From Alphaproteobacteria bacterium (lineage in GTDB: Bacteria > Pseudomonadota > Alphaproteobacteria > Micavibrionales > Micavibrionaceae), in the NCBI GenBank assembly GCA_030147745.1, contig JASBUS010000094.1:1-64000 (forward strand): a stretch of 64,000 nt of DNA, written 5' to 3'. Numbering within the stretch: position 1 is the stretch's first letter; the number at the start of each line of letters is the position of its first letter. The translations under genes were made by a program, and so were the position numbers. Below are positions 41,382 through 44,452 of this stretch, one piece after another. Below the pieces are notes generated by a model that saw nothing but the letters and a program-made list of their open reading frames with translations, was not told where the DNA came from and searched no databases.

Positions 41382-41464
41382 GATAACAGCTAAAGCTTGT
41401 ATTTTTCCTGTAAAGTTATAGAATCAATAAATGGGGCTATGCTGGCGTTTAATGAGGTTTGAGA

Positions 41465-43267
41465 ATGGAAGAAATTTGGTTTAGAGCGCTTAACGCGCTG
41501 AACGCGTTTGGCGCATCATCGCAGCGTACATATTTCTTGTATTTAATCGGCGCGGCTATTTTGGCTTTTGGCGTTTATTTTCTTGGTAGCAACCGCGCCA
41601 TGATTACGGGCGACAAAAGTGAACCACGCAGCCTTGGGAATTTTTTTCGCTATTTATTTAATAAAGACGTCTTCCTTCACAAATCATCACAGCAAGATTA
41701 CGCCTATTTCATCACCAATGCCTTTGTTCATTATGGCATCATTTCCACCTATGTTTTGACCGCGCCGCTTTTTGCCTTTACGGCAATTGCCTTACTCTCC
41801 AAAACTTTAGGCGTGCCGGAAGGCACATTAGCTGCCGCATCAAATTATCAGATGATTATGCTTAGCATTGCCTTTGCCTTGCTTTATGATTTTGGGGCAT
41901 TTTTTTCGCATTACTTGATGCATCAAAGCCCCTTCCTTTGGGCCTTTCACAAAGTCCACCACTCCGCGGAACGCTTGAACCCATTCACCCTCTTCCGCAT
42001 GCATCCCGTAGACTTAATCTTAACCGGGGCGATTGTGTCAATATTGACGGGCCTTGGTATGGGCGCGATGATTTATTTTTGGCAAGTTGAAGTTGCCTAT
42101 AAAGAATTACTCGGCATTAACTTTGTTTTCTTCCTCTATTATCTGTTTGGGTATAATTTGCGCCACTCACATGTCTGGCTGCCTTACCCAAAATGGCTAA
42201 GTTATTTATTGCTTAGCCCTGCGCAGCACCAAATTCACCATAGCATTGAGCGCAAGCATTGGGACAAAAATTTGGGGCTTATTTTCGCCTTTTGGGATGG
42301 CTTGTTTAAAACACTCTATATCCCGAAAAAAGATGAAGAGAAATTTGCTTATGGCGTATCTAAAAGCGAACCTAATCCATATGACAGCGTGCTGAGCATG
42401 TATATCAAACCTTTTGGTGACGCATGGGCTTATTTTTCAAAAGGCCAAAGCAAACGTCACGCCGCTATGATGCTGTTTTTCATCTGTGTCGTGGGTGGGT
42501 TTATTTACAATATCTTCCTCGTCACAGGCAAAAATATGCAGGCCATTCAAAACGTGCCAAGCACCGTTTTTTTAGAAGACCTGACATGGTCCGAGGCCAA
42601 TATTGCCATGACCAATGGCTATGACCGCATCATCATCCCGACAGGCGGCACGGAACAAAATGGCCGCCATGTTATTCTCGGCAAGCATAACTATGTGATT
42701 AAAGAAAGCGCGGAGCGCATTGCCAAGCGCGTCGGAAAAACTTTGGTTGCACCAGTTTTGGCCTATGTTCCCGAAGAAGTCCATATGACCTTCCCTGGCA
42801 CGATCAGCGTTAGCGAAGAAAGTTACGCCGCAATTCTTGAAGACGCTGCGCGCAGCTTCCAGCGCCACGGTTTTAAATATATCTTCTTCCTTGGTGACAG
42901 CTCACATAACCAAAAACCACAAGAAGACGTCGCCGAAAAACTCAATATGGAATGGTTTGGCGAAGGCGCAGTTGTGGCAAGCATCTCGGATTACTATAAA
43001 GAAAACGGCCAAGTTGCATGGCTGATTGAGCAAGGTTATAGCTTACAAGAGATTGGCGGACATGCAGGCATTCGTGATACATCCGAAATTTTGGTCGCAC
43101 ACGACGAAGGCTTCCGCCACCACCCCATCACACCAAAGGGCTTCCAAGGTGGCGATTCAAATGGCGATTATAAAAAGGCGAATAAGAAAATAGGCGAGCA
43201 GATGTTTAACTTAAAAGCCGATGCTGCCGTTAAACAAATCAATAGCATTATCAATGAAGCACCATGA
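41465..43267 (+). CDS. Fusion: fatty acid hydroxylase/sterol desaturase membrane domain + creatininase-fold domain
   Basis: 600 aa from the ATG at 41465, which has GAGG seven bases upstream; a TTG two codons earlier is less likely. Residues about 20-320 are a di-iron membrane hydroxylase of the sterol desaturase family, with His boxes H149-xxx-H153 (SHYLMH), H162-xx-HH (HKVHH) and H255-xx-HH (HQIHH), plus several membrane helices. A further helix (about 340-360, MMLFFICVVGGFIYNIFLV) leads to residues about 370-600, which match the creatininase/MftE fold: IIIPTGGTEQNGRHVILG, MTFPGTISVSEESY, FLGDSSHNQ, and GHAGIRDTSEI. Usual metal ligands are changed (EQH to E397-Q-N399; GHGGN to GDSSHN), so activity is uncertain. 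The stop overlaps the next gene's ATG. Confidence 0.85.
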   Translation: MEEIWFRALNALNAFGASSQRTYFLYLIGAAILAFGVYFLGSNRAMITGDKSEPRSLGNFFRYLFNKDVFLHKSSQQDYAYFITNAFVHYGIISTYVLTAPLFAFTAIALLSKTLGVPEGTLAAASNYQMIMLSIAFALLYDFGAFFSHYLMHQSPFLWAFHKVHHSAERLNPFTLFRMHPVDLILTGAIVSILTGLGMGAMIYFWQVEVAYKELLGINFVFFLYYLFGYNLRHSHVWLPYPKWLSYLLLSPAQHQIHHSIERKHWDKNLGLIFAFWDGLFKTLYIPKKDEEKFAYGVSKSEPNPYDSVLSMYIKPFGDAWAYFSKGQSKRHAAMMLFFICVVGGFIYNIFLVTGKNMQAIQNVPSTVFLEDLTWSEANIAMTNGYDRIIIPTGGTEQNGRHVILGKHNYVIKESAERIAKRVGKTLVAPVLAYVPEEVHMTFPGTISVSEESYAAILEDAARSFQRHGFKYIFFLGDSSHNQKPQEDVAEKLNMEWFGEGAVVASISDYYKENGQVAWLIEQGYSLQEIGGHAGIRDTSEILVAHDEGFRHHPITPKGFQGGDSNGDYKKANKKIGEQMFNLKADAAVKQINSIINEAP

Positions 43268-44019
43268 TTACACCACAAAGCATCGAGATAAAAGGTGACG
43301 CGCCCTATCGTATTTTTGGGACGCTCTATGCAGAATCAGATGAGCGTAAAAAGCTGATCATTAATTTGCACGGTCTCACCCATAGCCAATGGGGTTACCT
43401 TCAGCAAAATTGCATCCCCCCCTTCACAGATGCAGGTTATGACGTTTTTAATTTTAGCTTTTACGACCGCATGCCCGGTTCACGGCGTATGAATGAAGCA
43501 AGTTTAAGCGCGCATGTTACAGATTTTCAGCATGTGCTTAATCATTTCGCCGATCAATATGACGCGGTTTATATTACAGGACATAGCCTTGGCGGCCTTG
43601 TGATGTTAATTGCCAATCCCGCAAATATCAAAGCCGCAAGCTTTTGGGATCCTGCTTTCGATGTGACGCATTTTTGGTCAACAGGCGCCTATTTAATGGA
43701 GATACCCGCCCTTAACGCCTTTAAATTAGATTATGGCGCTGAATTTGTGATTAGCGCCGATTTAGTGCGCGAGATTCAAGATTACGATCATGCGCGCTGC
43801 TTAGAACTTGCAAGTGACTTTCACGCCCCAGCGCAGATGATCATCCCTGCGCTGAGTATCTTTTTAGCAAGCCCACATATATCACCAGCCGAATATGATG
43901 AGGCCTTTAAAACATATCAACGTATTTCAATGCCCAATACTGACCATTGCTTTTATGGCATAGGTCAGGATCAAGCGTTATTTAGCCATACATTAAACTG
44001 GTTTAATCAGTTCGTTTAA
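43264..44019 (+). CDS. Alpha/beta hydrolase coupled to the desaturase-creatininase fusion
   Basis: 251 aa, no signal peptide. The ATG overlaps the upstream stop (ATGA, 43264-43267), so the two proteins are probably made together. The N-terminal strand ends in LIINLHGLTHSQWG (oxyanion HG), the nucleophile elbow is ITGHSLGGLVML, and the base His is probably in MPNTDHCFYGIG near the end. An acid residue is less clear. It resembles small lipase- or esterase-like hydrolases. A role on the lipid product or substrate of the hydroxylase is inference from coupling. Its TAA shares a TTAA with the stop of the convergent gene. Confidence 0.8.
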   Translation: MITPQSIEIKGDAPYRIFGTLYAESDERKKLIINLHGLTHSQWGYLQQNCIPPFTDAGYDVFNFSFYDRMPGSRRMNEASLSAHVTDFQHVLNHFADQYDAVYITGHSLGGLVMLIANPANIKAASFWDPAFDVTHFWSTGAYLMEIPALNAFKLDYGAEFVISADLVREIQDYDHARCLELASDFHAPAQMIIPALSIFLASPHISPAEYDEAFKTYQRISMPNTDHCFYGIGQDQALFSHTLNWFNQFV

Positions 44020-44309
44020 CGGAAGCTGCGCATGAAACGTTTATGTGCTTCACGGTCATAGTCAGGCGCTTCTTTAGTCGCTTCTGGCTGTACTGGCGTT
44101 TCAGCAGCATCTTCCGCCTTAGCGTCCGTGTCATATTTCTTGTTTTGCTCTGCGATACGTTTTAAACGCGCTTCTTCTTGCGCTTTTAGATTTTTCTGCA
44201 TTTGCTCGTAAAATTTAGGGTCATTTGCAAAACACGCATTCACCTTGACCGACAAATCAATATGGTCAGTTGTAAGGTTTTTATAGATAAGGGAATTTAG
44301 ATCAGACAT
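44016..44309 (-). CDS. Small charged helical protein, 97 aa
   Basis: I start at the ATG at 44309 because GGAGTG precedes it; the frame extends to 44363 but without a ribosome site. The N-terminal half (MSDLNSLIYKNL ... FANDPKFYEQMQKN) is followed by a strongly charged coiled stretch KAQEEARLKRIAEQNKKY, an Ala/Glu/Pro linker and a basic end HKRFMRSFR. No membrane or signal sequence. I do not recognise the family. It converges on the hydrolase with a four-base overlap. Confidence 0.6.
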   Translation of the reverse strand: MSDLNSLIYKNLTTDHIDLSVKVNACFANDPKFYEQMQKNLKAQEEARLKRIAEQNKKYDTDAKAEDAAETPVQPEATKEAPDYDREAHKRFMRSFR

Positions 44310-44452
44310 TTTTGGCACTCCATATTTTCGTTTTGCACTGAATATGGAATATCTGTTTAGCAAGCTGCGTAGATTATGTCAACAACTTAATATATATCGC
44401 GCTTTTTTCTGAATATTCTTATCTGCGCCCTATTCTTAACGCATTGAAATCG

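Follow-up and report, generated by a model that had tools for sequence, protein, structure and literature searches.

The window (the whole 64,000-nucleotide stretch of DNA analyzed here, from a bacterium of the alphaproteobacterial family Micavibrionaceae) carries a fusion gene on its forward strand at 41465-43267 that encodes a 600-aa protein, in which a membrane di-iron-type hydroxylase is followed by a hydrophobic helix and a creatininase-fold domain, as judged from the open reading frame, Pfam, AlphaFold and the occurrence of the same fusion elsewhere. The frame runs from an ATG at 41465 to a stop codon at 43265-43267, with an in-frame TTG at 41459 picked as the start by the ORF caller, and holds both domains without interruption, as the initial annotation of this DNA had claimed, each with a Pfam score far above its curated cut-off. 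The gene upstream is divergent and encodes a MraW-type methyltransferase. On the downstream side, a gene for a 251-aa alpha/beta hydrolase with a GHSLGG motif (43264-44019, forward strand; Abhydrolase_6, 37.7 bits against 26.3), which is a genus-level neighbor of the fusion, overlaps the fusion stop codon and begins inside it (ATGA, at 43264) just as had been noted; beyond it come a 115-aa gene on the opposite strand and an aconitase gene, in that order. The 115-aa gene (44016-44363, reverse strand) is convergent with the hydrolase gene, whose end it overlaps, and has no Pfam match above cut-off.

In the N-terminal half, residues 136-283 (41870-42313; this and all following features of the protein are on the forward strand) form an FA_hydroxylase domain (PF04116, 81.3 bits against a curated cut-off of 31, E = 1.1e-22). 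All three His boxes of the family are present, their superfamily pattern being presumably HX3-4H, HX2HH and HX2HH: box 1 is H149-x3-H153 (41909-41923), with both His in 75/75 aligned hydroxylases (16 fused or adjacent and 59 others), and box 2 (H162-x2-H165-H166, 41948-41962) and box 3 (H255-x2-H258-H259, 42227-42241) likewise have their His in 75/75 rows. Ten His are invariant in all 16 linked (i.e., fused or adjacent) hydroxylases. Judged by its residues, the stretch from 1 to about 325 is a protein of the fatty acid hydroxylase superfamily with an intact di-iron-type His set. Comparison of its model with solved structures gave no Foldseek match with E < 0.001 (best Z, 4.3), and a phmmer search of this half against the PDB returned only matches with E of 0.4 or worse, all to unrelated proteins. 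The genome of the window has a second FA_hydroxylase gene, located where a contig begins (G000:C94:5-343; loci L002 and L054).

The creatininase-fold domain and its metal site

AlphaFold modeled the fusion protein with a mean pLDDT of 91.5 and a pTM of 0.76 from a 66-row alignment. The C-terminal domain, residues 366-600 (42560-43264), contains a Creatininase Pfam match over residues 371-566 (PF02633, 115.9 bits against a cut-off of 31.3, E = 2.5e-33), and its model aligned with creatininase-family chains at Z scores of 22.4-24.1, against 8.4 for the best other chain. The closest were 3no4_C (Z 24.1, rmsd 3.3, 228 residues aligned) and 3a6f_F (Z 23.8, rmsd 2.9, 226 aligned), with Z scores of 23.4-23.8 for 3a6x, 1j2t and 1q3k, and the best Foldseek E value was 3e-10. 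A structural search of residues 370-600 had been named beforehand as the decisive check on the fold, and a creatininase fold is what it found (Z about 24).

Set against creatininase, whose metal and catalytic residues we take to be E34, H36, D45, H120, E122, E177 and H178 (numbering read off the aligned chain), the window protein keeps E34 and H178 and replaces H36 with N399, D45 with H408, G119 with D478, H120 with S479, E122 with H481 and E177 with G532. We compared 30 domains of the subfamily with ten canonical creatininase relatives fetched from the same class as controls. At E397-Q398-N399 (42653-42661; creatininase E34-Q35-H36) the Glu and Gln are present in 30/30 members, and the H36 position is occupied by Asn in 18, Ser in eight and Gly in four, compared to His in 10/10 controls. 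Within G406-K407-H408-N409 (42680-42691), K407 and H408 are found in 30/30 members, H408 standing at the position of D45, which is Asp in 10/10 controls. The segment G477-D478-S479-S480-H481-N482-Q483 (42893-42913; the N118-G119-H120 region of creatininase) is more variable, with Asp in 28 and Glu in two at 478 and Ser in 18 and His in 12 at 479, followed by Q483 in 30/30. H533 (43061-43063; creatininase H178) is kept in 30/30 members and 10/10 controls. Six residues (E397, Q398, K407, H408, Q483 and H533) are therefore invariant across the 30 subfamily domains, and H36 and D45 are both replaced in 30/30 members and in 0/10 controls. Since the canonical controls do not conserve E122 and E177 either, the losses that define the subfamily are those of H36 and D45 (and of H120 in 18/30). 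The altered ligands to which the initial annotation had drawn attention are thus a fixed trait of a subfamily and not a peculiarity of one protein, and E397-Q-N399, GDSSHN (477-482) and the three His boxes were all found where it had placed them, with a hydrophobic helix (335-353) present between the domains. These residue patterns set the creatininase half in a subfamily of its own, with rewritten metal ligands.

Both halves of the fusion are under purifying selection relative to the nearest relative, L170 (dN 0.13 and 0.14), with dS values of about 1.9 and 2.5 that are near saturation. Decay of the second domain is disfavored by the residue conservation across the 30 members together with the low dN. 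A serine-hydrolase reading of the GDS motif was dropped, given that position 479 is Ser in 18/30 members and His in 12/30. We also considered an internal start that would yield a free second domain: the window protein has two Met before the helix, and eight of the nine other fusions have none (by eye, ATG only).

Occurrence, genomic partners and phylogeny

The same fused frame is present in ten distinct genomes, down to 33% identity. Seven are from the family, namely the window's genome, G471 and G472 of the same genus (loci L056 and L170 both being from G472, ARS11), and G480, G482, G483 and G425; beyond it, the fusion occurs in G521 from another family of the class, in a Rhodospirillales record (L057, counted as genome G868 since the coordinates match to within 3 bases) and, at 33% identity, in a Ferrovum record (L058). 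This corresponds to 7/104 genomes of the family and 8/142 of the order. A frameshift joining two genes, which had been put forward as the finding that would overturn the fusion, was checked directly: because ten distinct genomes have the same stop-free frame, chance and a frameshift in the assembly are both excluded as sources of the fusion, and misassembly is rejected on the same ground. The genome of the window is a draft in 101 contigs, but with the open frame repeated in other genomes we give next to no credence to an artefact of assembly or reading frame.

A split form was found in five genomes of the class (L036 to L040), with separate neighboring genes on one strand and the hydroxylase first; a sixth split locus, L051, has its second gene truncated where the contig ends. 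In two of these (L036 and L037), a choice-of-anchor-I gene lies upstream of the hydroxylase. For co-occurrence we surveyed an even draw of 385 genomes of the class, taking a score of at least 84 bits as the mark of the creatininase subfamily (canonical relatives score 71 bits or less) and leaving a cut creatininase piece in G372 (52 bits) out of the count. The subfamily was present in 14/385 genomes and the hydroxylase, at E of 1e-20 or better, in at least 36; at least nine genomes had both, with six fused or adjacent and three unlinked, and at least 27 had the hydroxylase without the creatininase subfamily. Among the matches listed, 5/14 subfamily genomes had no hydroxylase at E 1e-20, one of which (G324) has its gene at a contig end. 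The Fisher p for co-occurrence was 3e-7 across 385 genomes that are not independent of one another. Genomes in which the creatininase subfamily is unlinked or solitary count against a hydroxylase partnership. A search of viral contigs gave two pattern matches, neither of them a relative.

Other clades of the subfamily have other neighbors. A YncE-type propeller gene stands next door in 13/13 loci examined (L033:7977-10027, L048, L049, L178-L181 and L183-L188), made up of 9/9 of one clade and four further plasmid loci, and a BNR-repeat propeller gene precedes the creatininase-like gene in 3/3 loci of another clade from one genus (L041:6857-8868, L042 and L044), where a hydroxylase relative is present and unlinked. 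No match to YncE- or BNR-type propellers was found near L046, L047 or L182, and a YncE match was found in one (G521) of the eight fusion genomes searched, out of ten. These propeller partners count against a fixed partnership with the hydroxylase. Three plasmid copies of the exported creatininase-like gene lie near heavy-metal or copper genes.

The hydroxylase, too, has relatives with a different partner. In a related clade, 11 rows of 671-687 aa are fused to a solute-binding protein, as established by Pfam for two (L030:1447-3465 and L121:7941-9953) and by sequence similarity for all (also L070, L074, L079, L090, L093, L101, L023, L124 and L127), and the solute-binding protein is also met as an adjacent, unfused gene. 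In L121, Pfam identifies a DUF4856 gene upstream and, on the downstream side, genes for an ABC permease and an ATPase, and L101, L109 and L065 have at the place of the permease a gene of its size, known by size alone. By eye, an AxA sequence resembling a signal-peptidase site precedes the binding protein in several of these fusions. L101 and L124 come from records titled Bacteroidota, yet their neighbors on the tree are alphaproteobacterial (L030 for L101, L090 for L124); these bins are possibly contaminated or mislabeled.

The hydroxylase tree was built from 75 rows (10 fused, six adjacent, three unlinked, 11 with a solute-binding protein and the closest 45 of 108 others, with 63 dropped). 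A single group of 17 (SH-aLRT 88, not starred, by a quick method) takes in every fused and every adjacent row; its remaining member, L052, has no creatininase gene within the roughly 250 bases up to its contig end. The creatininase tree has 30 rows; nine of the fused ones cluster there (93/95, not starred), and a single origin for the fusion is not rejected (AU p = 0.40). Adjacent rows occupy three places on that tree, three of the five beside standalone rows, so that no single group unites the linked members. L058 sits on a long branch and is of unsure placement on both trees.

Membrane topology and proposed function

Between the two domains lies a hydrophobic helix, residues 335-353 (42467-42523; mean hydropathy 2.4 over 19 residues, within a helix spanning 330-362 in the AlphaFold model), where standalone relatives have their signal-like segment, and it probably makes a single membrane crossing. 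A hydrophobic segment stands directly ahead of the domain in 20/20 standalone or adjacent subfamily members and in 0/10 canonical controls, with a 15-residue mean hydropathy of at least 1.8 in 19 of the 20 and 1.36 in one; in eight of the 20 the called start lies 50 or more residues ahead of the domain, leaving the segment internal, and a nearer start is presumed. An AxA signal-peptidase site was not seen by eye in the window protein and is possible in L057 and L058. The His boxes of the superfamily face the cytosol, and since one further crossing would follow at 335-353, the creatininase-fold domain is probably periplasmic, across the membrane from the hydroxylase His cluster. The distribution of charge in the window protein (K/R and D/E counts of 15 and 11 over 204-334, three and two over 149-184, and one and one over 111-129) lends this topology weak backing. 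By analogy, the solute-binding-protein fusions, with an exported type of partner at the same junction, would also favor a periplasmic second domain. That the two domains would work on opposite faces of the inner membrane is our own addition to the initial annotation.

We somewhat favor the reading that the fused inner-membrane protein combines a cytosolic hydroxylase with a periplasmic, metal-binding creatininase-fold domain, both acting on one envelope lipid. The fusion gene would have arisen when two genes, neighbors in other genomes, were joined. The N-terminal hydroxylase (about 1-325), expected at the cytosolic face, would oxidize a membrane lipid, and helix 335-353 would cross the membrane and carry the domain 366-600 into the periplasm. 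In the exported domain H36 and D45 would have been lost, and H408 and an acidic residue at 478 (Asp or Glu) fixed beside the kept E397 and H533, giving a rebuilt site that most likely still binds metal, probably one ion, and that could bind or hydrolyze the head group or an amide of the same, or a related, envelope lipid. The role proposed for the hydroxylase draws on knowledge of the family and its intact His residues, and that of the second domain on conservation; the number of metal ions, the substrate and the order of the steps are guesses on our part. Variable position 479 (Ser or His) counts against the proposed metal-site reading.

The main rival, which we regard as possible and hold with distinctly less conviction, is that the creatininase-fold domain is a nonenzymatic periplasmic partner that binds a ligand or metal and regulates, feeds or anchors the hydroxylase. 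Such a role would suit the related hydroxylase clade with a solute-binding protein fused or adjacent at the same position (L121 adding the ABC permease and ATPase), the loss of two canonical ligands in 30/30 members and of H120 in 18/30, and the YncE-type propeller genes that adjoin members elsewhere, but six residues invariant in 30/30 look like a working site and not a decayed one. We think it unlikely that the fusion simply follows from gene order, two neighboring genes having joined without any cooperation between the domains: a single origin for the fusion is not rejected, each family is also met without the other and the linked members are scattered on the creatininase tree, and yet the linkage persists as neighboring genes in six loci and as a fusion in ten genomes (identity down to 33%), and the linked hydroxylases cluster on their tree.

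The initial annotation had joined oxidation, amidohydrolase-like and esterase-like modules into one lipid or amide modification pathway, a version that now appears very improbable. In its favor, the hydrolase gene adjoins the fusion and overlaps its end in the three genomes of the genus (window, L170 and L171), but it was not found beside any of the seven other fusions, and of the 28 family genomes (among 104) with hydrolase homologues at E 1e-8, only five have the fusion and 23 do not. On these neighborhoods and this distribution we rejected the hydrolase as a core part and left it out of the system, of which it is probably not an essential member.

Returning to the preferred reading of two domains serving one lipid, we tentatively extend it to the subfamily at large, as a speculative idea that may well be wrong: an exported creatininase-fold branch with a rebuilt metal site could be an interchangeable periplasmic module in Proteobacteria, paired in one clade with YncE-type propellers, in another with BNR-repeat propellers and here with a di-iron lipid hydroxylase, the fused protein then working a lipid from both inner-membrane faces. 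The subfamily offers a clean, testable case within a metallohydrolase fold, with two ligands that are conserved in the controls (10/10) replaced in 30/30 members, plus a probable relocation to the periplasm. Being linked repeatedly to a single group of membrane hydroxylases, it would be expected to share a substrate with them, which offers a way to approach those enzymes. Standalone members are recorded as 'creatininase family protein', and their ligand pattern argues against creatininase activity.

Comparison with known systems

The folds are known; as far as our searches go, the architecture, the rewriting of the ligands and the export of the subfamily appear to be undescribed. The initial annotation knew of no described protein with this pairing, and within the open-licence literature we found no description of a hydroxylase joined to a creatininase, the one co-mention with sterol desaturase being in a crab transcriptome; nor was an exported creatininase subfamily named among the matches listed from that literature. 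With the fatty acid hydroxylase/sterol desaturase superfamily (PF04116) the window protein shares the three His boxes, the ten invariant His and the membrane helices, and it differs in its extra C-terminal domain of another fold. The only NCBIfam model matched by this half is the ornithine lipid hydroxylase OlsE (NF052566), at 41.3 bits against an equivalog cut-off of 475. A test for ornithine lipids was uninformative, as PF13444, which we take to be the family linked to OlsB, matches 97/104 family genomes (the fusion occurring in seven) and also E. coli.

Creatininase itself (PF02633; 1j2t, 1q3k and 3a6x, presumably all from Pseudomonas putida) has the same fold over 224-229 residues and the two kept residues E34 and H178. 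Unlike creatininase, the window protein is without H36, D45, H120, E122 and E177, is membrane-tethered and is probably periplasmic, and it scores 55.6 bits against the equivalog cut-off of 235 for the enzyme model TIGR04448. Related by profile, at scores well short of assignment, are IolN (NF041098, 48.7 bits against 245) and MftE (TIGR03964, 45.2 bits against 172), the latter family being the subject of PMC3023750. The fusions of a hydroxylase with a solute-binding protein share with the window protein a related hydroxylase, a hydrophobic segment at the same junction and an exported type of partner, and they differ in what that partner is: a solute-binding protein in fusions of the L030/L121 type and a creatininase-fold domain in the window protein.
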